The position numbers were made by a program, and so were the translations under genes. Of a stretch of DNA of 32,791 bases, positions 2,079 through 19,081 are shown piece by piece (within the stretch, counting starts at the first letter, position 1; the number at the start of each line of letters is the position of its first letter). The notes under the pieces are model-generated. The model made no database searches. It was given only the letters and a program-made list of their open reading frames with translations, and was not told where the DNA came from. The stretch covers positions 1-32,791 of the forward strand of contig CALDZF010000206.1 in the NCBI GenBank assembly GCA_937944165.1, in the 5' to 3' direction. The DNA is from an uncultured Rhizobiaceae group bacterium (GTDB taxonomy: Bacteria; Pseudomonadota; Alphaproteobacteria; Rhizobiales; Rhizobiaceae).

Positions 2079-2783
2079 ATGAGTGATATTGTCAACGGAA
2101 TGCTGGGTGCATTCAGACTTATCTTTTCACTGGACGCCGATCTTTTCGAGATAATTCTTCTGTCGCTTCAAGTCACGATTTCTGCTGTTATCATAGCGTC
2201 CTTCATAGGCATGCCAATGGGTGCATGGCTTGCGGTTAATCGATTTAAATTTCGTCGTTTAACAATAGCAATTTTAAATGCGCTAATGGGGCTTCCACCT
2301 GTTGTTGTTGGTTTAATTGTATACATATTTCTATCAAGATCTGGCCCACTTGGTGTTTTGAATTTACTATTTACACCAACAGCAATGATCATTGCTCAAG
2401 TAATCATTATTACGCCTTTAATTGCCTCAATCTCTCATCAGGCAATACGGGACTTATGGGCGGATTATCATGATCTACTAATTTCTTTGAATGCCACCAA
2501 AAGCCAACGTATTTTTACACTTATCAAAGATTCAAGACGTTCACTCCTTACAGCATCTCTTGCAGGTTTTGGGCGCGCCATTGGCGAAGTTGGCGCTATA
2601 ATGATTGTTGGCGGCAATATAGATCATCTGACCCGTGTTCTAACAACAGCGATTGCTCTGGAAACTGGTAAAGGAGAATTTGCCTTTGCATTGGCACTTG
2701 GCTTCATTCTTATTGCTCTCGCCATCATCGTAAACTTGGCTATCCACTCGATTTCCAAAACCGAGAGGGCAAGCACGTGGTAG
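2079..2783 (+). CDS. tupB: Tungstate-type ABC transporter, permease
   Basis: 234-residue inner-membrane protein with about five to six hydrophobic segments and the binding-protein-dependent transport permease signature near residues 160-180 (ASLAGFGRAIGEVGAIMIVGG), the EAA-loop that contacts the ATPase. The family form (SDADLFEIILLSLQVTISA start, ALMGLPPVVVGL) matches TupB rather than ModB or CysT/W. It starts ten bases after a GGGGG ribosome site. Its end overlaps tupC by 7 nt, and tupA follows, giving a complete B-C-A importer. Tungstate import would supply the pterin cofactor of the FDH encoded downstream in the window. Confidence 0.9.
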   Translation: MSDIVNGMLGAFRLIFSLDADLFEIILLSLQVTISAVIIASFIGMPMGAWLAVNRFKFRRLTIAILNALMGLPPVVVGLIVYIFLSRSGPLGVLNLLFTPTAMIIAQVIIITPLIASISHQAIRDLWADYHDLLISLNATKSQRIFTLIKDSRRSLLTASLAGFGRAIGEVGAIMIVGGNIDHLTRVLTTAIALETGKGEFAFALALGFILIALAIIVNLAIHSISKTERASTW

Positions 2784-3493
2784 AGCAAATCCTCCCTTTA
2801 AGTGTTCAAGGTGTAAGCGTAAAAAAGCGTGGCAAAACCATCATTTCCGAATTAGATTTGGAACTTTCCAAGGACGGTTTAACAATCATAATGGGTCCCA
2901 ATGGAGCAGGAAAGACAACCCTTCTCAGGCTATTACATGGATTGGAACAACCAAGAACTGGCAAATTAGATTGGAATACCAATTTAAAAACCGCAAGGCT
3001 AAATCAGGCTTTCGTTTTTCAAACGCCAATCATGTTGAGGCGTAGCGCCCTTGAAAACATCATCTATCCCTTAACATTAAAAGGGGCAAGCAAGTCAGAA
3101 GCAATGCGCGAAGCTGAAAAATGGATAAACATAATCAATCTGGAACAATCAGCACACTTGAATGCAAAGCTTCTTTCGGGTGGCGAAAAGCAAAAATTGG
3201 CATTGGCGCGAGCCTTGGCAACCAAACCGCAGTTATTGTTACTAGACGAACCTACATCCAACCTTGATGGACGTGCAACAAAAGAAATAGAAGCCCTTTT
3301 AAATCAGACAAGAAAATCAGGCACACGGATTGTAATGACAACGCATGATATCGGTCAGGCAAAGCGTCTTGCTGATGAAGTAATCTTTTTATACCATGGC
3401 AAAATTCATGAAAAACAAGAAGCAATTAGTTTCTTTAAAAAACCATCAACCAAAGAAGCTACAGCTTTTTTAAAAGGAGACATTGTTGAATGA
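2777..3493 (+). CDS. tupC: Tungstate-type ABC transporter, ATP-binding protein
   Basis: 238 residues, starting with GTG inside the end of tupB. All nucleotide-binding motifs are present: Walker A GPNGAGKTT (40-48), Q-loop Q82, signature LSGGEKQ (133-139), Walker B LLLLDEP (153-159) and switch His190. The protein is short and has no C-terminal TOBE/Mop domain, unlike ModC, which fits the TupC type. It ends in an ATGA overlap with tupA. Function: ATP hydrolysis driving oxyanion uptake through TupB. Confidence 0.9.
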   Translation: MVEQILPLSVQGVSVKKRGKTIISELDLELSKDGLTIIMGPNGAGKTTLLRLLHGLEQPRTGKLDWNTNLKTARLNQAFVFQTPIMLRRSALENIIYPLTLKGASKSEAMREAEKWINIINLEQSAHLNAKLLSGGEKQKLALARALATKPQLLLLDEPTSNLDGRATKEIEALLNQTRKSGTRIVMTTHDIGQAKRLADEVIFLYHGKIHEKQEAISFFKKPSTKEATAFLKGDIVE

Positions 3494-4311
3494 AGTTCGT
3501 TGCACATCTATTGGTTTTCATATCCACAATCTTATTTTCAAATTCTGCTTACACAGCAGAAATGAAACTGGCGGTAACAACTTCATTTAACAATTCAGGA
3601 CTTTCAGACGTTCTTATTCCAGAAATCAAAAAGGACCTGGGACTGGATGTTCAACTCTTAGTAGTCGGTACAGGACAAGCTTTAAAACTCGGGCGCGCTG
3701 GCGATGTAGATGCCATTTTAGTCCATTCAAAAAAAGCTGAGGAAGAATTTGTGTCTGATGGTTTTAGCACGCATCGCCGTGAGATTATGTATAATGATTT
3801 TGTAATCATCGGGCCCTCCTCCGACCCTGCTAAAATTAGTAATTCAACAACGACTGTAGAAGCATTGGGCAAAATTGCTAAACACAAATCAATATTTACA
3901 AGCCGTGGTGATGATAGCGGAACACACCGAAAAGAAAAATCCTTATGGAAAGCTGCGGGTAAAGATCCAGAACGTTTTGAAGCAACTTGGTATCGTGCAG
4001 TTGGTGCAGGCATGGGCGCAACGCTTAATACAGCAAGTGGAATGAATGCCTATCTAATGTCAGATCGTGCAAGCTGGCTTAAATTTGGCAATAAGGGCGA
4101 ACTAAAACTACTCTTTTCAGGGGATCCAGTTTTATTCAACCAATATGCATACCTGCCTATAAACCCTTTAAAACATTCGCATGTAAAAATTGACCATGCA
4201 AAAACTTTGGAAACTTGGCTCACAAGTAAAAAAACACAAAAGATGATAGGAGCCTATACAGTTAATGGTGAGACCCTATTCACCCCCAATGCCATAAAGA
4301 AAGTAAATTAA
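3490..4311 (+). CDS. tupA: Tungstate-binding periplasmic protein
   Basis: 273 residues with a signal peptide cleaved near residue 23 (AYTAE). The ligand motif TTSFNNSGL (30-38) matches the TupA consensus (TTTS..NSGL), and a second conserved block, SRGDDSGTHRKE (138-149), follows; both distinguish TupA from ModA and WtpA. It overlaps tupC by 4 nt. The placement next to FDH accessory genes supports a tungsten (or W/Mo) role, but oxyanion selectivity cannot be proven from sequence alone. Confidence 0.92.
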   Translation: MKFVAHLLVFISTILFSNSAYTAEMKLAVTTSFNNSGLSDVLIPEIKKDLGLDVQLLVVGTGQALKLGRAGDVDAILVHSKKAEEEFVSDGFSTHRREIMYNDFVIIGPSSDPAKISNSTTTVEALGKIAKHKSIFTSRGDDSGTHRKEKSLWKAAGKDPERFEATWYRAVGAGMGATLNTASGMNAYLMSDRASWLKFGNKGELKLLFSGDPVLFNQYAYLPINPLKHSHVKIDHAKTLETWLTSKKTQKMIGAYTVNGETLFTPNAIKKVN

Positions 4312-4610: not shown

Positions 4611-5249
4611 TCAACCATCAAGCGCTAATCTTTGCCTCAAAGAAACTTTTGGCAAAGCGCGTTCTTTTTGCGGTTCATCCAAAACCCTATAAGAAGAAGC
4701 TTCTGCTACTTCGGGTTTTTCGTCTAGCACATCAATCTCTTCTGCCGCAACCTCGTTATGAATATCTTGTTCATCAGCTTCATCTGTGACTGCTTCTTGC
4801 GTATCAACTTCCTTGGCTTCATCTTCTTTTGAAACCACTTCAAGCTTTTCTTCAATTTCTTTAAGATAGCCTCTCCCAGCCTGCCATGCGGACTTAAAGA
4901 CTTTCATATTCAGGCCCTTATCACCAAAATCCTGATCGTAGTCATTGAGCCCATCAATATTTGCAAAGATTGGATTAGAACGCCAAAGAATTGAAAGCGC
5001 TTGCTTCTTGAGTTCGTCAGGAACACCGCGCTTCATAAAAACAGATAAATCACTTTCTTCATTAATTGTATCAAGGTCAATTTCTTCAGCAGCTTCACGG
5101 TTTGCAAGCAGTTCTGCTTCAAGCTCTTCGTCAATTAACGCCTGTTCTTCTTCGCTAACAACGTTTTTTTCCAGATCAACTTCAAGACCACGTTTACGCT
5201 TTGACCATCTGGAAATCATTCCCTCTTCGGTTTCTTGATCTTTAGCCAT
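4611..5249 (-). CDS. DUF3306 protein, FDH-cluster associated
   Basis: 212 residues, very acidic. The family core is in the middle (GVPDELKKQALSILWRSNP, then NIDGLNDYDQDF), matching the DUF3306 pattern of a short helical hairpin ending in a D-x-D/WDF-like motif. The N-terminus (ISRWSKRKR) is also typical. The region after about residue 125 is low-complexity, Glu-rich and probably disordered. DUF3306 genes usually occur directly after DUF3305 genes near formate dehydrogenase; that is the arrangement here, with an 11-bp gap. Molecular role unknown; an assembly or scaffold role is a guess. Confidence 0.82.
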   Translation of the reverse strand: MAKDQETEEGMISRWSKRKRGLEVDLEKNVVSEEEQALIDEELEAELLANREAAEEIDLDTINEESDLSVFMKRGVPDELKKQALSILWRSNPIFANIDGLNDYDQDFGDKGLNMKVFKSAWQAGRGYLKEIEEKLEVVSKEDEAKEVDTQEAVTDEADEQDIHNEVAAEEIDVLDEKPEVAEASSYRVLDEPQKERALPKVSLRQRLALDG

Positions 5250-5260
5250 CTACCTATGCC

Positions 5261-5797
5261 CTAATGTTTTGTATGAGATTGAAAGATTGGTGATTTACCA
5301 AACTTTTGTTCTTCAACATTCAACCTGTCACGTCTGCGTTTTATAAACTCTTCCTCAGTATGATGTTCTTCAACAAAAGCCTGAATAAAAGCGGCAACAG
5401 GTTCCGGCATGGCAACTTTTTCAATAATATCATCACCTGCATCTGTGAAATCCTGAGCGTCATATGAAGATGCTGTTACCAAATGTGGTAGATAAGGGAA
5501 CTCAGACTGTGGGTCATCATTTTCACGCAATACAACGTAAAGTTCAGGCTTATCCAACATTAGATTTAAAACCAACGCTTCCGTTTCACGCCGATGCAAA
5601 ACCAGCGGCAGACTTTCAGCGTGATAATGTGTGAACCCCTCACCCGTAACCAACTCAGTCCATTTTTCGGTTTTAGGTGGATTAAATATAACGGATACCG
5701 GTTTCCACACCCAATCAGCCCATGGATGGGAGGATTTGCGTTTTTCAACGACAATTCCCAAGGAAATATAAACCTCTCTTCCATCTACAGAACGCAA
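5261..5797 (-). CDS. DUF3305 protein, FDH-cluster associated
   Basis: 178 residues starting at a TTG with GGGAG seven bases upstream; no ATG fits better. The pattern SLGIVVEKRKSSHPWADWVWKPVSV at the N-terminus (Trp-rich, about residues 12-36) and the LVLHRRETEALVLNLMLDKPELYVVLR block are characteristic of DUF3305. The family is cytosolic, of unknown function, and is repeatedly found with DUF3306, a ferredoxin-rich protein and FDH genes, as here. It is divergent from the polyferredoxin gene; a perfect 15-bp palindrome lies between them. Confidence 0.85.
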   Translation of the reverse strand: MRSVDGREVYISLGIVVEKRKSSHPWADWVWKPVSVIFNPPKTEKWTELVTGEGFTHYHAESLPLVLHRRETEALVLNLMLDKPELYVVLRENDDPQSEFPYLPHLVTASSYDAQDFTDAGDDIIEKVAMPEPVAAFIQAFVEEHHTEEEFIKRRRDRLNVEEQKFGKSPIFQSHTKH

Positions 5798-5831: not shown

Positions 5832-5915
5832 AAACAAATCCTGCAAGGACTTCAAAACAACATTTGCAACTATAAAAATCCTGTATAAACTCATATGAAA
5901 TCTGGGAGGATTAAA

Positions 5916-7961
5916 TTGGAAAATTCTACGCGTTGCCTTGTATGTAATTGTGAAAAAACTATGCCACTTGATGAAAAAAAACTCTCAAAGGCAATTTCTC
6001 AAGATGTAGAAAAAATCCATATAAGTCTTTGCAGGACACAGTTGGCAAGCTATGAAGAGGCAATAAAAAGTGGTGATGATTTAACCATCGCTTGCACGCA
6101 AGAAGCGCCCCTATTCCAGGAAGTTGCTGAAGAACTAGGCTCAAACTCCAATCTAAACTTCATAAACATTCGTGAATTTGCAGGCTGGTCAAAAGAAAGC
6201 AATAAAGCAACGCCCAAAATTGCAGCACTTTTGACAAATGAGAAATATCAAGCAAAACCTGCCAGACTAAAATCTATCATCTCAGATGGCATGTGTCTTA
6301 TCTATGGTTCAGGCGAAGCTGCACTTGAAGCAGCAAGAATATTATCAGAAAAACTTTCAGTTACGCTTCTTCTAAGCGATGCAGAAGAATTCGTACTACC
6401 TATAACTGGTGAAGTTCCAATTTATCGAGGCGACATAATAAAAGCAGAAGGCTCATTTGGTAATTTTTCTATTACTGTTGATAATTACGCGCCTTTACGC
6501 CCTGCTGCACGTAACACACTTGATTTTGCTGTTGCACGAAATGGTGCCACTTCAAATTGCAGTCTTATTCTTGATATGTCAGGAAACGCTCCACTGTTTA
6601 GTGGCTACCAACACCGTGATGGATATTCACGCGTAGATGCAGGCGACCCTGCCGCAGTACTTCGTGAAACCATTAAGCTGTCTGAAATGGTAGGTGAATT
6701 CGAAAAGCCAATATATGTAGATTACAACCAGGATATTTGCGCACATTCTCGTTCGCAAAAACAAGGCTGTAATAAATGTCTTGATGTTTGTCCCGCAGGT
6801 GCCATCACTGATATTGGGGACACCGTAGAAATTGATAGTGGCATATGTGGTGGTTGCGGTTCTTGCAATTCGGTATGTCCAACAGGTGCAATTAATTATC
6901 AATATCCAACGCGCACAGACATTATTTCCAACAGCCAAAACATACTCGCCACTTATAACAATGCAGGCGGTAAAGACCCTATTCTTTTAATCCATGAAGA
7001 ACTCTCAGGGTTTGAAATGATTTCAGCAATTGCAAGATATGGTGAAGGATTGCCAGCAAATATAATACCACTTGGTATTCATGCAGTAACAACATTTGGA
7101 CATATTGAAATAACTAGCCTGATTGCTAGTGGCGCAGCGCAAGTAATCTTACTTACTAATCCACTACGAAGTGACGAATTGTCTGGGCTGGAAAAGGAAG
7201 TTGAACTCGCTAATTCGATTTTAGATGGCCTTGGTTTGAATAACCAGGCTCGTGCGCATATTGTAAGTGAAGCAGATCCACAAATTGTCGAAAACACATT
7301 ATGGAATTTATCAGACATTAAACCTTTAAAATCAGATAGCTTTAACGCATTGGGCTCAAAACGCGAGATTGGTCGCCTTACTTTTTCCAAACTGCATGAA
7401 CAGTCTAAAACAAAACCGCAAGTTATTGCATTACCACTACAAGCGCCTTATGGAAAACTGGATATTAATCAAGACGCCTGTACGCTTTGCATGGCATGCA
7501 CATCATCTTGTCCAACTGGTGCAATTACAGACACACCTGGTGAACCCAAATTACGATTTACACAATCAGCCTGTGTGCAATGTGGGTTATGCGCAAACAC
7601 CTGCCCGGAAAAAGCACTAACCCTAATACCACAACTGGATTTTACACCTGCCGCAATGCAGGCAGTAACACTTTATGAAGAAGAGCCATTTGAATGCATT
7701 AATTGTGGCACAGCATTTGCGACAAAGTCCACAATTGAACGCATATCAGAGCAACTTGCAGGAAAACACTCGATGTTTGAAGATGAAGAACGTTCAAACC
7801 TAATTAAAATGTGCGAAAATTGCCGTGTCGAAGCACAGGCAAACTCATCTAATGATCCGTTTGCTGCAGGAAGCCGCCCCCGCCCAAGAACGACAGAAGA
7901 TTATATAGCTGCAGAAAAAGGCGATCTTACTGCAAGTGATTTTTTAATAGAAGATGATTAG
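5916..7961 (+). CDS. FDH-associated polyferredoxin (4Fe-4S) with Rossmann-like and zinc-ribbon parts
   Basis: 681 residues from TTG 5916, which has GGGAGG six bases upstream; an in-frame ATG at 5895 lacks a ribosome site. From the N-terminus: a Cys motif (CLVCNC), a nucleotide-binding-like segment (LIYGSGEAALEAARIL, about 128-143), two 4Fe-4S motifs (about 275-325: CNKCLDVCP and CGGCGSCNSVCP), a central alpha/beta region, two further 4Fe-4S motifs (about 522-563: CTLCMACTSSCP and CVQCGLCANTCP), and a C-terminal zinc-ribbon-like set, C594/C597 and C633/C636. Four clusters imply a soluble electron carrier or redox scaffold. The family occurs beside DUF3305/3306 and FDH; a part in cofactor maturation (for example sulfuration) or reductant supply is inferred, not shown. 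Confidence 0.85.
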   Translation: MENSTRCLVCNCEKTMPLDEKKLSKAISQDVEKIHISLCRTQLASYEEAIKSGDDLTIACTQEAPLFQEVAEELGSNSNLNFINIREFAGWSKESNKATPKIAALLTNEKYQAKPARLKSIISDGMCLIYGSGEAALEAARILSEKLSVTLLLSDAEEFVLPITGEVPIYRGDIIKAEGSFGNFSITVDNYAPLRPAARNTLDFAVARNGATSNCSLILDMSGNAPLFSGYQHRDGYSRVDAGDPAAVLRETIKLSEMVGEFEKPIYVDYNQDICAHSRSQKQGCNKCLDVCPAGAITDIGDTVEIDSGICGGCGSCNSVCPTGAINYQYPTRTDIISNSQNILATYNNAGGKDPILLIHEELSGFEMISAIARYGEGLPANIIPLGIHAVTTFGHIEITSLIASGAAQVILLTNPLRSDELSGLEKEVELANSILDGLGLNNQARAHIVSEADPQIVENTLWNLSDIKPLKSDSFNALGSKREIGRLTFSKLHEQSKTKPQVIALPLQAPYGKLDINQDACTLCMACTSSCPTGAITDTPGEPKLRFTQSACVQCGLCANTCPEKALTLIPQLDFTPAAMQAVTLYEEEPFECINCGTAFATKSTIERISEQLAGKHSMFEDEERSNLIKMCENCRVEAQANSSNDPFAAGSRPRPRTTEDYIAAEKGDLTASDFLIEDD

Positions 7962-7970
7962 GCTCAAGAC

Positions 7971-8297
7971 TTATTGCTTCGGCGCTGGATTTTGTTGATA
8001 ACAAAGCTCTTCTGCACGCGCCTTGAAATCAGAAAATTGCGCTTCAGATAAAACACCATCTTGTTTCATTTGGTTTACATCTCCAATACGCTTTTGAAGA
8101 CATTGCGCAAGTTCAGGATTTGTATCTGCAATGGAAGCGGTTGTTGCTTCTGGAAGACCAACCGCAACTTCATTTGAAGCAAGGCGCACAAAGTCATCTT
8201 TGTAATGGTAGTATAATAAAAACGCAAAAAGCAGTGCCAGTAATAATGCTAAAATTCTTGCAGCACCCGTATCAACAAATTTTCGTTCAATGGTCAT
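7971..8297 (-). CDS. Small single-pass membrane protein, unknown function
   Basis: 108 residues. One strong transmembrane helix (about 14-30, RILALLLALLFAFLLYY) is followed by a soluble tail with two cysteines (C64, C98), an arrangement consistent with a periplasmic domain stabilised by a disulfide. Its ribosome site (GGGAGGG) lies inside the last codons of the DUF6352 gene, so translation is coupled to it. It is the last gene of the minus-strand FDH tail and converges on the polyferredoxin gene with a 9-bp gap. I do not recognise the family. Confidence 0.75.
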   Translation of the reverse strand: MTIERKFVDTGAARILALLLALLFAFLLYYHYKDDFVRLASNEVAVGLPEATTASIADTNPELAQCLQKRIGDVNQMKQDGVLSEAQFSDFKARAEELCYQQNPAPKQ

Positions 8298-8302
8298 TGG
8301 TA

Positions 8303-9328
8303 TTATTCCCTCCCGATTTTTAATGGCAAATTGGTTAAAAGATTTTGCGGCTTCATAATCAACTTGCGTCCTTCACTCATTGCCATTCCTAAATATACAT
8401 TCTTTCCTTGCATCGTGTCTATAACGTCGCTTTCATAAAGAAACTCAATTCGGTAAAGCGCAAGAATTCTAAATAACTCAGCTTCGCTTACACTTTCATT
8501 ATTGTAAAGTGCATTTAAAATTCGCGTTGCTTCCAAATCAAGACCAACATGCCATGACCACTTTTCATCACGAATAGATTTCATTGCTTGAATGCGAGTT
8601 TTAGCTCCTAAAAAATGCATAATCCATTTTTCAATTACCCGGCCAAGTGCATCTTGTGCTGGTTGCGTAAACCTAAAATCAATGGCCATATCAAATTGAT
8701 CTGAACGCTGCCAATATTTGGCCTTGTTATCATCCGTCATAACATCAAGGGAAATTTCACGCGCAGGCGTACCGCTTTCGGCTAATAATTGCCCTAACCC
8801 GCCAAACCCTGATTGCGAACGCATCTCGACAATTTCCTGGTCAGCAAGCATCAACTCATCTTCGCCTGTTGTCACCGCTTGCTCTCGGAAAAATAGTTCA
8901 CTAGCACGCAATTGCATTGGATCATCTTCATCAGCAAGTATATTTCTCAAAATCAAATGCACCATCTGGTCAATAAAGACTGGCGGGATTGTAATTGACC
9001 CTGATTGAAAAAGTGAAGCATACGCCCCTTCAATCGTACCATGAGACGCAAGCAAATCTCGAAAACCCAACATAAAACGATAGTTATCTGCTGCATCACT
9101 ATCTTTAATCGAAGTTATTTCACTTGTTGAAACTTTAGCAAACGGATCATCCATAAGTTTTTCAAATAAGGCATATTCATACTGACAGGATTCTTCTATC
9201 GGGTGAATTTCAGGCCTGGTAAAATAAGCACGCAAATAATCAGTTGTAACTTTTAACCATCCATTTTCATCTCGCTCAACCAAATGAAACCCGGCAGATT
9301 TCCAAAAACCGTTTTTATCATCAGACAT
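8303..9328 (-). CDS. DUF6352 family protein
   Basis: 341 residues from ATG 9328, which overlaps the stop of the preceding gene by one base (TAATG); an upstream extension in the same frame (to 9346) is unlikely. The N-terminus (FWKSAGFHLVERDENGWL ... YLRAYFTRPEI) and the block RFMLGFRDLLASHGTIEGAY match a family I recognise as DUF6352, found near FDH genes in proteobacteria. No signal peptide, membrane segment or metal motif is seen; it is predicted to be cytosolic and mostly helical. Function unknown; tight coupling to DUF6505 suggests joint action. Confidence 0.78.
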   Translation of the reverse strand: MSDDKNGFWKSAGFHLVERDENGWLKVTTDYLRAYFTRPEIHPIEESCQYEYALFEKLMDDPFAKVSTSEITSIKDSDAADNYRFMLGFRDLLASHGTIEGAYASLFQSGSITIPPVFIDQMVHLILRNILADEDDPMQLRASELFFREQAVTTGEDELMLADQEIVEMRSQSGFGGLGQLLAESGTPAREISLDVMTDDNKAKYWQRSDQFDMAIDFRFTQPAQDALGRVIEKWIMHFLGAKTRIQAMKSIRDEKWSWHVGLDLEATRILNALYNNESVSEAELFRILALYRIEFLYESDVIDTMQGKNVYLGMAMSEGRKLIMKPQNLLTNLPLKIGRE

Positions 9329-9804
9329 TAATCTACAATCTCCCAAACCTTCGTATGCACAGGTTCACTGGGTGGTTGCACTATGCGAAATTCTTCTCGT
9401 ATTTCTCCAGTATCATCAAAATATCGCCCTATCGCAAAAATGGTGTTGATCGGTGCATCCTCACACATTTCGACAACAAAGCTCGTTTCTTGTTGAGCAA
9501 CTTTCATTGCAGCATCCATATCAGGAGCGCCAAAATCACTCATAAATCTTTGCGCCAGTATGTTTGTAATAGCTTCAAAATCATCTTGCACAATGTCTGC
9601 AACACTGACAAATGTTGAAAATCCAAAACTTGAAATTGATAAAAACCCATTACTGAACGCTTGTTTAGCTTTACCCTTCAAGTCAGTTTTTTGCGCACCA
9701 GAAAAACAAAAGCCGCCTGGAATAGCCCACTCATCTGGCATAGCTGCCAAATCAAATACATTATTATCAGATGGGTCAAAGCGTATGGTTTTAAGAAACT
9801 TCAT
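9328..9804 (-). CDS. DUF6505 family protein
   Basis: 158 residues; the start ATG overlaps the stop of the ligase-like gene by 4 nt (ATGA). The pattern TIRFDPSDNNVFDLAAMPDEWAIPGGF at the N-terminus fits a small alphaproteobacterial family I recognise as DUF6505 (name moderately sure). No catalytic motif, signal or membrane segment is visible. It lies between the ligase-like gene and DUF6352 and overlaps both, implying fixed stoichiometry of the three products. Function unknown. Confidence 0.72.
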   Translation of the reverse strand: MKFLKTIRFDPSDNNVFDLAAMPDEWAIPGGFCFSGAQKTDLKGKAKQAFSNGFLSISSFGFSTFVSVADIVQDDFEAITNILAQRFMSDFGAPDMDAAMKVAQQETSFVVEMCEDAPINTIFAIGRYFDDTGEIREEFRIVQPPSEPVHTKVWEIVD

Positions 9805-10529
9805 TTAAAGCTACCCATTGAGTTTCCAAGCACTTCGATAGTATCAAGCGAACGCATTTCATCATTGAATTTAACAAGTGCATTACCGCTTTCATCCAAT
9901 CCCAAATACTCGTTTTCTGACAACCCAGATATTAATTTATCGTCCTTGGAAAACCGCCCAACCCACTGGTCATGAATAGGCTTAAACCCCTCTTCACTCC
10001 AGGTATGTATCCAGTTAAGCAAATGACGAGACGTTGATTCCAATAATTGCGTTCTGGAGATATCACCACACCCCTCATCCCACATTGTAGTGCGCCAGGC
10101 TTCTTCTCCAGGGTCGTTGATGAATTTTTCTGGTTTCATTGATATATCAAGCGATACAATCATCCAATCAGGCAACTCTGCAGTAGATGTTTCGCTTAAT
10201 GCCAATCCACAAAGGCCAATTTGTGCTTCATTCAATAAAATAACATTTGGCCATTGATAATTTATAGCAACCTCTGGTGGGCATAATGTTCCAGCGGCAT
10301 CACCAAAAGCGACCATTGCAACATAAAGCATCTCCCCACATCGTGAAACATCAACTTCAGGCTCAAGCACAAGTGCAAAACGCAGATTATATTGATCATC
10401 TGACCAAATTAGATCACCAGCACTAAACTCACCTTTTAAAACATGCGCTTTTGCATGTTTTAAAGGTGACTTACCAGAAGCAATTCGATGCCCTTTTAAC
10501 AAAGGAGGAAAAGTAGGAGCTTGTATCAT
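9801..10529 (-). CDS. Biotin/lipoate protein ligase-like protein (BPL_LplA_LipB_2), probably degenerate
   Basis: 242 residues. The central part aligns with the biotin/lipoate ligase fold: LRFALVLEPEVD ... INYQWPNVILLNEAQIGLCGLAL corresponds to the KWPND...K..G block of BirA. Here the Asp is Val, and the position of the BirA catalytic lysine (K183) is Gln. The GRGRRG loop that holds the adenylate in BirA is also not seen. The C-terminus has a DUF4444-like part (WVGRFSKDDKLI ... LGLDESGNALVKF). It is therefore likely a ligand-binding or scaffolding relative rather than an active ligase. It starts two bases after the DUF6494 stop and overlaps DUF6505 by 4 nt. Its conserved company with FDH genes is known; its job is not. 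Confidence 0.82.
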   Translation of the reverse strand: MIQAPTFPPLLKGHRIASGKSPLKHAKAHVLKGEFSAGDLIWSDDQYNLRFALVLEPEVDVSRCGEMLYVAMVAFGDAAGTLCPPEVAINYQWPNVILLNEAQIGLCGLALSETSTAELPDWMIVSLDISMKPEKFINDPGEEAWRTTMWDEGCGDISRTQLLESTSRHLLNWIHTWSEEGFKPIHDQWVGRFSKDDKLISGLSENEYLGLDESGNALVKFNDEMRSLDTIEVLGNSMGSFK

Positions 10530-10531
10530 CT

Positions 10532-10723
10532 TTAAGAAATATCAATATCACCTTCAACAACATGATTCAGATCCGTACCTTCTGCTGTCAGAACAACTTT
10601 TACGCTAAGTTTATCCTTTCCGCTTAAATCAGCTTCACGGACAATACGCTCAATTTCCTGCTGAGAAGTTACACCGACCTGTTTCAGGAATTTACGCATA
10701 GACATATTAAATTCTTCACTCAT
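10532..10723 (-). CDS. DUF6494 family small protein
   Basis: 63 residues. The sequence FNMSMRKFLKQVGVTSQQEIERIVREA followed by a short beta-rich tail (KLSVKVVLTAEGTDL ... GDIDI) matches the small FDH-neighbourhood family DUF6494. It is cytosolic, with no cysteine. The start ATG overlaps the protease stop by one base (TAATG), so it is translationally coupled. Function unknown; its size and helix-plus-strand form would suit an adaptor. Confidence 0.78.
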   Translation of the reverse strand: MSEEFNMSMRKFLKQVGVTSQQEIERIVREADLSGKDKLSVKVVLTAEGTDLNHVVEGDIDIS

Positions 10724-11688
10724 TATTTTTTCCTTTGGTTTGCTGGAATGATTAATTCAAGTCTTTCATTATTTCTTAAAATATCAACTTTAATGCTTTT
10801 ATCATTGCCAACCAAAACAACAATCGCCTCATAACTTCCTGCACGTTTTATTCTTTTGTCATCAGCATAGTAGATTATATCGCCACTCTTTATGCCAGCT
10901 TTTTCTTCACTGGAGTTCTTTTCCATGCGCATTACTTCTGCACCAACCAAGCCACCCTCAGCACTAGGTTTCGCCGGCCTTAGCAAAAGACCCGACTTTC
11001 TCAATGTAACAATTTTATCATCTAAATAGTCGTTTAATAAAACGTTTAACAGCTCCACAGAAACTGCAAAATTAACACCAATATTTGCATCAGATTGTCG
11101 TGTAAAAATCGCTGATAGCATACCGACTAAATGACCATTAACATCGACTAAAGCCCCACCTGACATGCCAGGATTTACAGAAGCATCTGTTTGAACAAAG
11201 TCTTCTATTTTATTAAACCCAACGCCTGACACATTTTTTGCTGAGATAACACCACAGGTAATTGACACATCTAATCCAAAACTGTTGCCAATTGCACAAG
11301 CTCTGTCTGCTAAGGCATAATTATCAGAAAACTGAATAGGTGACATTTTTTTATTAATTTTTAAAAATGCAATATCTGTTTGAGGGTTACGCATCACAAT
11401 AGAGGCTTTTAAAACTTCCCCATTCACAGTTCTTATATTAGCTGTTTTTGCAGGACCAAGAACGTGGTCTGCTGTAGCAATTAATCCAGTTAAGATAACA
11501 ACACCAGAACCTTCTGGTTCTTCGTTTCGTAAAAAACCTGATGGCCAATCAGGCAAAACACTAACAACAGAGTGGCTAGCACACTCAAGAGTCATTTTAC
11601 ATTCAAGCAACTGACCCTTATTTAATGTTTTTGCTTGAAGGGGCAAAACATATAATAAATTGAGTATGAAATAGAGGAATATCCTCAA
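10723..11688 (-). CDS. HtrA/Deg-like periplasmic serine protease with one PDZ domain
   Basis: 321 residues, started by TTG 11688, which places a signal peptide at 1-19 (ending LQAK). The trypsin-like domain has a full catalytic triad: H75 (ATADHV), D105 (PQTDIAFL) and S176 in NPGMSGGAL, where the usual GNSGG is GMSGG. A PDZ domain occupies about 230-315 (GAEVMRMEKNSSEEKAGIKSGDIIYY). It is shorter than DegP (one PDZ rather than two) and resembles DegS-like or short Deg proteins. Extra cysteines (C30, C36, C131, C145) suggest periplasmic disulfides. It sits five bases after the microprotein gene and overlaps DUF6494. A role in quality control of the exported FDH or its cytochromes is inferred from position. 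Confidence 0.85.
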   Translation of the reverse strand: MRIFLYFILNLLYVLPLQAKTLNKGQLLECKMTLECASHSVVSVLPDWPSGFLRNEEPEGSGVVILTGLIATADHVLGPAKTANIRTVNGEVLKASIVMRNPQTDIAFLKINKKMSPIQFSDNYALADRACAIGNSFGLDVSITCGVISAKNVSGVGFNKIEDFVQTDASVNPGMSGGALVDVNGHLVGMLSAIFTRQSDANIGVNFAVSVELLNVLLNDYLDDKIVTLRKSGLLLRPAKPSAEGGLVGAEVMRMEKNSSEEKAGIKSGDIIYYADDKRIKRAGSYEAIVVLVGNDKSIKVDILRNNERLELIIPANQRKK

Positions 11689-11853: not shown

Positions 11854-13188
11854 CTATTGCGCCTTTGTAGCTTCTTTTAAAAAGCGGATTAAGTCATCCC
11901 GCCGCTCTATTTTCTTTAATCGTTGAACAGGCATTTTAGTTCCTGGCAGCATAACATCAGGTCCATCATCAAACAAACGGGCAATTGTGTCTTCATCCCA
12001 TATTACATCAGTTTCCAATAAAGCTTTAGAATAATTATAGCCTGCAAGAGTTCCTGCCTTGCGTCCAAAAACATCATAAAGTGTTGGCCCTGCTCTATTG
12101 GCGCCATCAGGTGTTAGCGTATGACAAACACTGCACTTGCGACGAAATTCCAATTCGCCCAAGTCTTTTGTATCACGCACTTGAAACCGCCTTGGAAATT
12201 CAGAACGGTTTTGTTGAATTTTATTGGGTGAAATTTGCCAGCGCGAGGCAAAATCATCCAAACCGACATGATAAATTTGGTTAGTGCCTGATACAAAATC
12301 AAAATCCCATATGGGGCCAAAAGTTACCTCATTATTTTCAATAACCTTGCCAGAAGAAGCTGCAAAAACCTCTATCCATCCAGAACCATCACCATAGGCA
12401 GCCAATGCTTTATCAGATGATAATTTGACACTTTGTATGGGGCGTTCACGCTTGGCAATTTCTTGTATCTTTTCAGCTTTTTCAATACCAACGATTGCTA
12501 CAGCGCCATCAATTGCGCCAAACAAAACGCGGTCATCATCTAATAATACAATCGAATTTATACCCCAGCCATGACGGTATATGGGACGTATCATTTCTTG
12601 TTTTTCTACATCCCACTCCAGTATTTGACCATCAACGGCACCAGAATAAAGTTTTTTACTATCCTTTGAAAAGCTTACCGTATTTACATTACCACGATGG
12701 CCTGAAAGAACTGCCAGTTCTTTTCTTGTCTCAAGGTTATAAAGACGAACCGTTTCATCCCATCTTGCAACTGCTGCAAGCCTACCATCTTTACTCACAT
12801 CAACATCAAGTACCTTATCAACAGGCGCATCAATACGAGTAATCAACTTACCAGAATTCAAATCCCAAATGCCGAGCGAACCATCATCACTTACAGAAAT
12901 CGCTTCATTTCTGGTTGGTACAAAAACAACATCATTAACCGCTGCATCATGGCCATCTAAACGGTTTAAAAGCTCAGCACCCTCTTCGCCAATTTTCCAA
13001 TGGATAATTGAATAATCAAATGATGCCGTTAAAACATGTTCACCATCAGCGGCAATGCTAATTGCCTTGATAGGCCCACCATGACCTTTGAGTGTATCTG
13101 GCAGTTCTTGTGCATGGGCTGAGAAAAAACAAATCCCCACCAGCAAAAAGCCAGAGAGGATTCTTTTTAAATTCAAAGTTTCAATCAT
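11854..13188 (-). CDS. WD40 beta-propeller fused to cytochrome c
   Basis: 444 residues from ATG 13188; the frame is open to a TTG at 13206 directly after the fdhC stop, with GGA nearby, so the longer start is possible. A signal peptide (to about FFSAHAQ) is followed by about six to seven WD40-type repeats (for example LKGHGGPIKAISIAADGEHVLTA, LSGHRGNVNTVSFSKDSKKLYSG). A class I cytochrome c domain occupies about the last 100 residues, with haem site CSVCH and distal Met in LPGTKMPVQ. The product is periplasmic. Position directly after the cytochrome b subunit makes it the best candidate for taking electrons from FDH or docking a partner. Confidence 0.88.
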   Translation of the reverse strand: MIETLNLKRILSGFLLVGICFFSAHAQELPDTLKGHGGPIKAISIAADGEHVLTASFDYSIIHWKIGEEGAELLNRLDGHDAAVNDVVFVPTRNEAISVSDDGSLGIWDLNSGKLITRIDAPVDKVLDVDVSKDGRLAAVARWDETVRLYNLETRKELAVLSGHRGNVNTVSFSKDSKKLYSGAVDGQILEWDVEKQEMIRPIYRHGWGINSIVLLDDDRVLFGAIDGAVAIVGIEKAEKIQEIAKRERPIQSVKLSSDKALAAYGDGSGWIEVFAASSGKVIENNEVTFGPIWDFDFVSGTNQIYHVGLDDFASRWQISPNKIQQNRSEFPRRFQVRDTKDLGELEFRRKCSVCHTLTPDGANRAGPTLYDVFGRKAGTLAGYNYSKALLETDVIWDEDTIARLFDDGPDVMLPGTKMPVQRLKKIERRDDLIRFLKEATKAQ

Positions 13189-13206
13189 CGGTCTAAAACC
13201 TGACAA

Positions 13207-14304
13207 CTATTCCGCGGGATGAGGCTTGCTCGCTAAGCGGTTTTCTTCGTCCATTTCTTCAACCCAAAGAGAATGGTGTTCCATTGCCCAATTTTCATCA
13301 ACTTCGCCAGAAGTCATTGCATCAAGCGCACCTTCCATTCCTACAGAGCCAATATAAATATGAGCGATGATAACAACGATCATAAAGACTGCCATTATCG
13401 TATGCCAAGTTGCTTGTAGTTGTTGTTCTTGGATAGCACCAATATTCGTAGCAAATTCAGTTCCAAATATACTATTTGAAATTGCCGCTGTATCTGCCAT
13501 CATTGTTGTTGTAAATGGGTTTAGTAGCGCCCATCCAGACATTGAAATTGAAACGCCACATAAAATTACAATCCAGAAGATAATCTTTTGGCCTGCATTA
13601 AATTTCTTGGCGGGAGGATGACCTTTACCAATCATTCCGCCACCTTTTAATATCCAAACAAGATCATGACGATTTGGGATGTTATGAACAATCCACAATA
13701 CAGCAACCAACACCAAAGCTACCATGAATGCAAAACCAACATAGTTATGAACAAACTTACCAAAAATTGTAATGGTTGAAAAAGCACTTGCGCCAATTAC
13801 AGGTAACAATACGGTTTTGCCGAAGATTAAGTTTAACCCGCTTAAGGCCAAAACAATAAAACTGGAAGCAAGCAGCCAATGCGAGCCACGTTCTAATAAT
13901 GTAAAACGCGTAATCGTTCTGCCAGACGCACCTTTCGAAATTTTCATGCGTCCGCGTAATGCAAAAAATACCGATAGTAAAAGTAAAATACCAAGAATTG
14001 CCCAAGCAGAATATCGTGGTAACGGGCCATTTCTCATTTGGCGCCATTCTTCACCTTGACTTTGTATCATCAAGCCAGATCCAGCATTTTGGCCAGCAAC
14101 AGTACCTTGACCGCCTTTACGAATTTGCCGCCAAAGCTCTGCATCAGACGATGACCCACTGGTTGTATTACCTGGCACAGCGCCTTCAACTGGTGCTCCA
14201 TTATCGTTGGATTGCGCGTAACTAGGTGTTAAAACTGTAAGCATAGAAACGACAACCAACATGGTTGCAAAAAGAATAGTTAGAAATGACTTCGCCAATT
14301 TCAT
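13207..14304 (-). CDS. fdhC: Formate dehydrogenase, cytochrome b (gamma) subunit
   Basis: 365 residues with GGGGAGAG before the ATG. A signal peptide (1-31) and a periplasmic N-terminal extension of about 70 residues precede the family's cytochrome b core of four main helices (about 100-320). His residues in ERGSHWLLASS, GKFVHNYVGF, WHTIMAVF and IIAHIYIG are the expected haem b ligands. The length exceeds E. coli FdoI/FdnI (about 210 residues) because of the N-terminal part, as in other proteobacterial FDH gamma subunits. It anchors the complex and carries electrons to quinone or, given the next gene, possibly to a periplasmic cytochrome c. A terminator lies between it and fdhB. Confidence 0.93.
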   Translation of the reverse strand: MKLAKSFLTILFATMLVVVSMLTVLTPSYAQSNDNGAPVEGAVPGNTTSGSSSDAELWRQIRKGGQGTVAGQNAGSGLMIQSQGEEWRQMRNGPLPRYSAWAILGILLLLSVFFALRGRMKISKGASGRTITRFTLLERGSHWLLASSFIVLALSGLNLIFGKTVLLPVIGASAFSTITIFGKFVHNYVGFAFMVALVLVAVLWIVHNIPNRHDLVWILKGGGMIGKGHPPAKKFNAGQKIIFWIVILCGVSISMSGWALLNPFTTTMMADTAAISNSIFGTEFATNIGAIQEQQLQATWHTIMAVFMIVVIIAHIYIGSVGMEGALDAMTSGEVDENWAMEHHSLWVEEMDEENRLASKPHPAE

Positions 14305-14456: not shown

Positions 14457-15053
14457 TTATCCACCAGTCTTCTGGCCGTAGGCAGTACCCCAACCCCATG
14501 CACCAGCACCGAAACCACGTGCAACCACGCGCTCACGATAAACAGCAGAGACCACGTCACCGTCACCAGCAAGAAGTGCTTTTGTCGAACACATCTCTGC
14601 ACAAAGTGGCAATTTACCTTCCGCAAGACGGTTACGCCCATATTTCTGGAATTCAACCTGAGACTCATCCTCTTCAGGTCCACCAGCACAGAAAGTACAT
14701 TTATCCATCTTGCCGCGTGAACCGAAATTTGAAGCCTGCGGGAACTGTGGCGCACCAAATGGGCAAGCATAGAAGCAATACCCACATCCGATACATAAAT
14801 CCTTGGAGTGGAGAACCACACCATCTTCTGTATCGTAGAAGCAATCCACAGGACAAACAGCCTTACAAGGCGCATCCGAACAATGCATACATGCAACAGA
14901 GATTGAGCGCTCGCCTGGCTTGCCATCATTGATGGTTACAACCCGGCGGCGGTTCACCCCCCACGGTACTTCATGCTCATTTTTACAAGCCGTAACACAA
15001 GCATTACACTCGATACAGCGTTCAGCATCACAAAGAAACTTCATTCTAGCCAT
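14457..15053 (-). CDS. fdhB: Formate dehydrogenase, iron-sulfur (beta) subunit
   Basis: 198 residues with GGAGG eight bases before ATG 15053. Four 4Fe-4S motifs are visible: CIECNACVTAC, CMHCSDAPCKAVCP, CIGCGYCFYACP and a last set (CTFC ... CAEMC). This is the usual FdnH/FdoH/HybA-type ferredoxin subunit that carries electrons from the catalytic subunit to the cytochrome b. There is no signal peptide; it is expected to be exported with the catalytic subunit. It is shorter than E. coli FdoH (about 300 residues) and lacks its C-terminal transmembrane anchor. It lies 14 bp after fdhA. Confidence 0.94.
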   Translation of the reverse strand: MARMKFLCDAERCIECNACVTACKNEHEVPWGVNRRRVVTINDGKPGERSISVACMHCSDAPCKAVCPVDCFYDTEDGVVLHSKDLCIGCGYCFYACPFGAPQFPQASNFGSRGKMDKCTFCAGGPEEDESQVEFQKYGRNRLAEGKLPLCAEMCSTKALLAGDGDVVSAVYRERVVARGFGAGAWGWGTAYGQKTGG

Positions 15054-18361: not shown

Positions 18362-18393
18362 AAAAAAAACGCTCACTCCATGGAGTAAGCGTT
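18362..18393 (-). terminator. Rho-independent terminator overlapping the 3' end of the torD-like gene
   Basis: On the minus strand, AACGCTTACTCC and GGAGTGAGCGTT form a stem of about 12 bp (one non-Watson-Crick pair, small loop), followed directly by TTTTTTTT. The stem includes the last codons and stop of the TorD-like gene, ending that transcript about 90 bp upstream of the small Tat gene, which then needs its own promoter. Confidence 0.85.
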
Positions 18394-18975
18394 TGTTTCT
18401 ATTTCTATAAACAGTCTGCCTATTGCACCGACTGGTTGATAAAACTTACTGAGTTGAGCAGCTTCCAGATCTTTAAAGAAGTGCACCGCCCAAGGCTCTA
18501 TATGTTGGGTATAGAACTCCCTTTGGGTTTCCATATTTGCGGGAGTACCGTACCTCCCAATAATAAGACCAGCCATCATTTCAAAAAGCGATCCTATGTG
18601 ATCTTCAGGTTCTTTAACAGCTTCATTGCGCTCAATGCCTAACTCACGCATGGAATTGCGAAGCTTGGCTAAAGGCTTTTCATTTAAAAAACCTGTTAGG
18701 TAATAAGAGCCATAAGGCAAAAGTTCACCACGTCCCATACCAATGAAAAGAGCGTTATATTCTTCAAGTACCGTTGCTTCATCAGTAGAAGCGGCCAGCT
18801 TTGACAATGCTTTAAAGGCATTGCCCATATCAGTATCATCCCCTTCTAGGGATTTTAAATCATTCAATATATCTTTGGATGGAGATTTGAATAAAACATT
18901 GCCAATCAATGCGTAAAGATTTGCACGCATTTCATCTTCAGCACTAATAGTTATTTCATTAGCCTTTACTGACAA
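18373..18975 (-). CDS. TorD/DmsD-family molybdoenzyme maturation chaperone
   Basis: 200 residues. TTG 18975 is preferred because AGGAGA lies six bases upstream; the frame is open to a TTG at 18990, which would contain the ribosome site. It is an all-helical cytosolic protein with the family motifs EYNALFIGMGRGELLPYGSYYLTG and EPEDHIGSLFEMMAGLI (the E-P-x-DH block). Such chaperones bind Tat signal peptides of molybdo/tungsto-oxidoreductases before export; the adjacent FDH subunit and small Tat protein are the probable clients. A terminator at its end separates it from the fdh transcript. Confidence 0.9.
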   Translation of the reverse strand: MSVKANEITISAEDEMRANLYALIGNVLFKSPSKDILNDLKSLEGDDTDMGNAFKALSKLAASTDEATVLEEYNALFIGMGRGELLPYGSYYLTGFLNEKPLAKLRNSMRELGIERNEAVKEPEDHIGSLFEMMAGLIIGRYGTPANMETQREFYTQHIEPWAVHFFKDLEAAQLSKFYQPVGAIGRLFIEIETNAYSME

Positions 18976-19081
18976 ACTGTATCTCCTCAATTCAGAGTTA
19001 ATACCATGAATCCTAACCTGTCAATCAAAACCAGCACCTTTCAAGTATAAGTCATAAAACACAAAAACTAATGCCCTAAAG

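Follow-up and report, generated by a model that had tools for sequence, protein, structure and literature searches.

The window, by which we mean the whole 32,791-nucleotide stretch analyzed here (contig CALDZF010000206.1 from an uncultured Rhizobiaceae bacterium), carries a formate dehydrogenase (FDH) cluster together with its accessory genes (Table 1). On the minus strand, the genes follow the order TorD-type chaperone, FdhA, FdhB, FdhC, WD40-cytochrome c protein, HtrA-type protease, DUF6494, BPL2, DUF6505, DUF6352, a 108-aa open reading frame (ORF), DUF3305, and DUF3306. BPL2 is the label that we use for members of the Pfam family PF16917. A preliminary description of this DNA had reported a biotin/lipoate-ligase-like gene at this place, and its reading frame was recovered on the same strand with an ATG start, a product of 242 aa, and the segment QWPNVILLNEAQIG.

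Table 1 Genes of the FDH cluster and its surroundings in the window.
Feature	Position	Strand	Evidence or remark
TupB/ATPase/TupA-like tungstate-type ABC transporter	2079-4311	+	TupA against NF041772 9.4e-62, below cut-off
DUF3306, FDH-cluster accessory gene	4611-5249	-	Pfam 2e-15
DUF3305, FDH-cluster accessory gene	5261-5797	-	Pfam 9e-35; NF011058 MobA-DUF3305 1.5e-21
688-aa multi-[4Fe-4S] protein, FDH cluster	5895-7961	+	Fer4 1.3e-21, 4 stretches
108-aa ORF, no Pfam family, tail of the BPL2 gene train	7971-8297	-	ORF; relatives in 21 neighborhood loci
DUF6352 (PF19879)	8303-9328	-	Pfam 3.7e-86; junction sequence
DUF6505 (PF20115), 158 aa	9328-9804	-	Pfam 1.1e-52; synteny
BPL2 (PF16917, BPL_LplA_LipB_2, pseudo-biotin-ligase), 242 aa	9801-10529	-	Pfam 7e-60; PDB 3bfm 2.8e-35; AF2 pLDDT 89.5
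DUF6494 (PF20104), 63 aa	10532-10723	-	Pfam 3e-29
HtrA/Deg-type serine protease	10723-11688	-	TIGR02037 3.7e-54, below cut-off
WD40 beta-propeller with C-terminal cytochrome c motif (CSVCH)	11854-13206	-	between FdhC and accessory genes
FDH gamma subunit (FdhC), cytochrome b561 type	13207-14304	-	PF01292 2.9e-24
FDH beta subunit (FdhB), 4Fe-4S	14457-15053	-	Fer4 families
FDH alpha subunit (FdhA), 964 aa	15068-17962	-	TIGR01591 1.5e-141, below equivalog cut-off
TorD/DmsD-type maturation chaperone	18373-18990	-	PF02613 2.3e-32; TorD 1e-16

The genes from the HtrA-type protease to DUF6352 were found to be separated by mutual overlaps or by gaps of at most 2 bases. The protease gene overlaps the start of DUF6494 by one base, 2 bases separate the end of DUF6494 from the BPL2 start downstream, and BPL2 and DUF6505 overlap by 4 bases at their stop and start (ATGA, 9801-9804). 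The ORF listed for DUF6352 starts with a TTG at 9346, but the likely start is the ATG at 9328, which overlaps the DUF6505 stop (TAATG). These junctions bear out the translational coupling to genes at the tail of the FDH cluster that had been proposed from the sequence. FdhA carries a twin-arginine (Tat) signal (NRRDFLKNSG) and is of the Cys type (ICH), both motifs being read from the sequence. No signal peptide was evident from the sequences of BPL2, DUF6505, and DUF6494, and the 108-aa ORF has an apparent N-terminal membrane segment as judged by eye.

The FDH system of the window likely uses tungsten, as judged from the tungstate-type transporter beside the cluster, whose TupA-like component scores below the model cut-off. 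DUF3305 matches the DUF3305 part of NF011058, the NCBI model for MobA-DUF3305 fusions, a match which hints that DUF3305 may act in the bis-MGD step. Both DUF3305 and DUF3306 are known to go with FDH operons, and the association of TorD/DmsD with fdhGHI, DUF3305, and DUF3306 has also been described (PMC4464133). Among the neighborhood loci considered below, the WD40-cytochrome c protein recurs in 32 and may accept the electrons of the FDH, while the HtrA/Deg-type protease, which has an intact GMSGG motif in the window, is present in 14. The AlphaFold model of DUF6505 is confident (pLDDT 92.1) and had no fold match in the PDB at E <= 0.001, so this protein may have an undescribed fold.

We found that the BPL2 protein of the window belongs to PF16917, with a score of 202 bits (cut-off 27) over model positions 1-182 of 183 in a profile search. 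Its match to the birA_ligase model TIGR00121 (6.5e-8, 32.4 bits) was below the curated cut-off of 83.1. The PF16917 family profile in turn matches true biotin ligases in the PDB, namely those of S. aureus (2.7e-8) and E. coli (BirA, 2e-5). One solved structure, 3BFM (TM1040_0394 from Silicibacter sp. TM1040), is a relative by sequence; its depositors assigned no function and titled the entry as a biotin protein ligase-like protein of unknown function. The genome that carries the window also encodes a separate, intact BirA with the KWPND and SKKCSGIL motifs, which scores 150.9 bits and thus exceeds the curated score. The BPL2 of the window is a paralog of BirA and not the sole biotin ligase of the cell, which rules out that it stands in for a missing BirA.

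The AlphaFold2 model of BPL2 (pTM 0.88) had its best fold match in 3BFM (TM 0.83/0.87, E 5e-23), followed by the biotin ligases of S. aureus, M. tuberculosis, A. aeolicus, and P. horikoshii (TM about 0.66-0.74). The preliminary description had suggested structure prediction with superposition on BirA and LplA as a check. 3BFM lacks the same loop and lysine as the protein of the window. With BirA (TIGR00121, PF03099), BPL2 shares common ancestry, a fold at TM ~0.7, the conserved W, the TSL.E.G motif, and features of the C-terminal domain, but it differs in that the adenylate loop is deleted and the STN, KWPND, K183, and GIGIN residues are lost.

To describe these losses across the family, we aligned 76 BPL2 members with 25 alphaproteobacterial BirAs. 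The adenylate loop (the Q-x-x-G-R-G-x-x-G segment) is a gap in all 76 BPL2 sequences and is filled in all 25 BirAs, and the GxGRxGxxW adenylate-binding loop of BirA is accordingly absent from BPL2. The deletion is clean, removes about 15 residues, and lies between the strand ending in TLVW (DLI in the protein of the window) and the next W. A GRGRRG loop had earlier been noted as not seen in the protein; the alignment makes this a true deletion that is shared by the family. The STN motif of BirA has mostly become D-P/A-F. The Lys of KWPND, found in 25/25 BirAs, is kept in 1/76 BPL2 proteins, the Asp of KWPND in 4/76, and the Asn of GIGIN in 3/76. At the K183 column, where all 25 BirAs have Lys, BPL2 has Leu, Arg, Glu, or other residues, and Lys in 2/76.

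In the BPL2 of the window, KWPND reads QWPNV, the K183 position is occupied by Gln104, and the Asn of GIGIN is replaced by Ser. When this protein was aligned by hhalign with the intact BirA of its own genome, QWPNVILLNEAQ paired ungapped with KWPNDVMLNSKK, giving the same residue pairing as the family alignment. The Val at the Asp position of KWPND (D176) and the Gln at K183, both of which had been read from the sequence beforehand, are thereby confirmed, and the change of the KWPND Lys to Gln is an additional loss that had gone unmentioned. The question of whether the lysine is absent in all members, which the preliminary description had raised, has a near-universal but not a strict answer, as the two BPL2 genes with Lys at the K183 column (L072 and L084) rule out strict universality. 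Both have the deleted adenylate loop, and their Lys is probably there by chance.

The adenylation loop and the lysines are needed by BirA for the formation and transfer of biotinyl-AMP. With these parts missing, BPL2 should be unable to form or transfer biotinyl-AMP by the known mechanism, and it is not expected to activate or transfer biotin or lipoate in this way. The BirA-type beta-sheet core and most of the structural Gly, Pro, and Trp residues are retained. The idea of a ligase fold that is kept but disarmed is therefore strongly supported, by the TM of 0.83 to 3BFM and of ~0.7 to biotin ligases together with the loss of the catalytic apparatus throughout the family. Because PF16917 and 3BFM were already known, the disarming is a trait of the family and not a peculiarity of the gene in the window. 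PF16917 itself, its fold, and its relatedness to biotin ligase had been recorded before (Pfam, 3BFM), while the deletion of the loop throughout the family, the descent from within alphaproteobacterial BirA, and the quantification of the link to FDH are new here.

We analyzed the origin of BPL2 with a 43-row maximum-likelihood tree, which has a long outgroup and a bootstrap that had yet to settle. BPL2 forms one clade (100/100) with a long stem (0.81), nested within alphaproteobacterial BirA, where eight BirAs join it (branch 87/93), whereas the BirA of the same genome as the window and the archaeal outgroup fall outside (98/94). A quick tree of 78 rows agrees. The motifs LPPxY, EEG, and ESFARH are common to BPL2 and its nearest alphaproteobacterial BirAs; we had considered them as new functional motifs of BPL2 and rejected them, as this sharing indicates that they are inherited. 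Together with the placement in the tree, they show that BPL2 descends, by a single origin, from an alphaproteobacterial BirA-type biotin ligase. Descent from a lipoate ligase is rejected, since biotin ligases make up the significant matches listed, both by sequence and by structure.

We then searched for genes that accompany BPL2 in other genomes. The neighborhood set comprised 78 BPL2 loci, a few of which are the same gene from two sources, so that the counts are slightly redundant. DUF6505 was present in 64 of the 78 loci and lay within 200 bases of BPL2 on the same strand in 60, while DUF6352 was found in 62, DUF3305 in 59, FdhA in 59 (within the fetched stretch), and DUF6494 in 47. Of the remaining loci, several are truncated where a contig stops or carry the FDH marker at another place in the genome. 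In a survey of 385 alphaproteobacterial genomes, 41 BPL2 carriers were assigned by hand, including the divergent G312 and G233. The FDH marker DUF3305 occurred in 40/41 carriers compared with 59/385 genomes overall, and the Fisher p values for co-occurrence, from a test that ignores relatedness between genomes, ranged from ~1e-38 (DUF3305) to 1e-29. The single carrier in which DUF3305 was not found (G228) is a genome of 80% completeness where FdhC neighbors BPL2, and DUF6352 or DUF6505 was found in 41/41 carriers. BPL2 is thus co-inherited and co-located with FDH, as an accessory gene would be. It was absent from 19 of the 59 genomes with DUF3305 (12 of these 19 have DUF6352), which indicates that BPL2 is not universally required.

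The BPL2-FDH set was also observed outside the class, in three genomes of one genus of the same phylum (L169, L170, and L171). There, BPL2 occurs with DUF6505, DUF3305, DUF3306, TorD, and FdhABC, while DUF6352 was not detected. This suggests a block transfer of the set.

In a subset of genomes, BPL2 is found at a distance from FDH and close to ABC-transporter genes, and in one locus (L107) a PBP-like/HTH regulator adjoins it. Such arrangements would suit a protein that, instead of serving maturation, belongs to the mature FDH system as a regulatory or structural component, such as a regulator of the respiratory complex in the cytoplasm or a sensor linked to tungstate. We give this reading a small chance, as FdhA is exported by the Tat route and BPL2 has no evident signal, making a stable association with the mature enzyme less likely, and as Pfam detects no DNA-binding domain in BPL2. 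The neighborhoods in which BPL2 is separate from FDH did not share an informative partner. Natural fusions were rejected as a clue to partners; in the long BPL2-containing ORFs, Pfam showed no domain besides BPL2, and their length probably reflects nothing more than the open frames of GC-rich DNA.

We estimated dN/dS for close BPL2 pairs with clean gene limits and obtained 0.15 (L044/L045), 0.14 (L049/L053), and 0.10 (L097/L099). The value for L057/L059, whose stretch includes a non-coding extension, was 0.26. The pairs L093/L094 and L060/L062 were left out because they were spoilt by ORF extension, and the more diverged pair L109/L118 (0.46 over 201 codons) was left aside. BPL2 is therefore under purifying selection and the gene is maintained. 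The loss of the catalytic motifs, together with the FDH genomes that lack BPL2, could also be read as the mark of a functionless relic ligase on its way out. The selection data make this extremely improbable; dN/dS is about 0.1-0.15, the reading frames are intact, the operon position is retained, one ancient clade has been kept across wide divergence, and BPL2 accompanies FDH even in a distant genus.

The same strong family-wide conservation and purifying selection would suit a protein that had gained a different enzyme activity, such as a neofunctionalized transferase with new catalytic residues, and other proteins of the fold superfamily, e.g., LipB, do use different residues. LplA and LipB share only the fold superfamily with BPL2; LplA needs an invariant catalytic Lys, and LipB needs a Cys plus a Lys. 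In contrast, the BPL2 alignments contain no invariant Cys or Lys, and the top-scoring significant matches listed for BPL2, by sequence and by structure, are biotin ligases. The residues conserved in BPL2 yet rare in BirA are A52, N100, G105, P120, and H169. No invariant polar residue in the family alignment is specific to BPL2, and E152, R168, and H169, though conserved in BPL2, are also present in 7 to 10 of the 25 BirAs. A new transferase activity is, in our estimate, quite improbable.

The preliminary description had suggested ligand binding or scaffolding in place of protein modification, and of the two halves of this proposal scaffolding is the better one. The loss of the ligand-contact motifs and the lack of a new invariant polar set speak against ligand binding at the ancestral site, although BPL2 might bind a different ligand. 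It could, for instance, bind a small molecule of a cofactor pathway, such as a pterin or a nucleotide, in a remodeled BirA pocket and deliver it to, or sense it for, the FDH. The retained BirA-type core with its structural residues, a pocket that the deleted loop might leave open, and the TorD-type chaperone and MobA-linked DUF3305 in the cluster speak for this possibility. However, every ancestral ligand-contact motif is lost, and A52, N100, G105, P120, and H169, the only residues that the family conserves and BirA rarely has, do not resemble a typical new binding signature. We regard small-molecule binding as unlikely, though still worth keeping in mind.

The reading that we favor, with some confidence, is that BPL2 is a pseudo-ligase that assists the maturation or assembly of the Tat-exported tungsten/molybdenum FDH as a non-catalytic partner, together with DUF6505 and, in many cases, DUF6352 and DUF6494. 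It is very probable that the protein helps without catalysis and does not act as a ligase. In this scenario, an ancient alphaproteobacterial BirA paralog lost the biotinyl-adenylate loop along with its other catalytic motifs, and the resulting pseudo-ligase would have been recruited into the FDH operon. The retained BirA core and C-terminal domain would then hold partners by protein contact, DUF6505 first and often DUF6352 or DUF6494, in a cytoplasmic complex that would help the FDH to mature or assemble before export. Protein contact is the most likely mode, given the catalytic loss and the lack of a catalytic-looking set among the residues conserved in BPL2 but rare in BirA. From their adjacency, we infer that DUF6505 is the specific partner of BPL2. 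The TorD-type chaperone and DUF3305, which is elsewhere fused to MobA, point to a cytoplasmic maturation step of the FDH, although the gene neighborhood is about equally compatible with a function in the working enzyme or in regulation.

The proposed role resembles that of the TorD/NarJ-type chaperones of Mo/W enzymes, in that a dedicated non-catalytic helper is encoded together with its client. The folds differ, however, BPL2 being of the BirA alpha/beta type and TorD/NarJ all-helical, and a separate TorD-type protein is already present in the same cluster. In the literature searched, we found no paper on the function of PF16917/BPL2 or on the effect of its deletion on FDH. The word lipoate is absent from PMC4464133, whose biotin passages concern biotin sulfoxide reductase. 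The tungsten-cofactor route for M. extorquens FDH1 has been defined in a paper in which the word biotin does not occur (PMC13197769), and the maturation of the alpha subunit is, according to the title of a further report, the major bottleneck for a related tungsten FDH (PMC13396061).

Such FDHs attract interest for the conversion of CO2 and formate, and their production in foreign hosts is hampered by a poorly understood maturation. As a single gene, the BPL2 of the window is one more member of a known family. The analysis ties the orphan structure 3BFM (PF16917) to the problem of FDH maturation and provides a candidate gene set of BPL2, DUF6505, DUF6352, and DUF6494. More tentatively, the products of these four genes may form a cytoplasmic complex, so far undescribed, that serves the assembly of a widespread class of tungsten/molybdenum FDHs, with the biotin-ligase pseudo-enzyme as a central scaffold that would hold the cofactor or the client. 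The family also presents a clean case in which a paralog of an essential enzyme had its active-site loop cut out and was then kept as an apparently non-catalytic protein.
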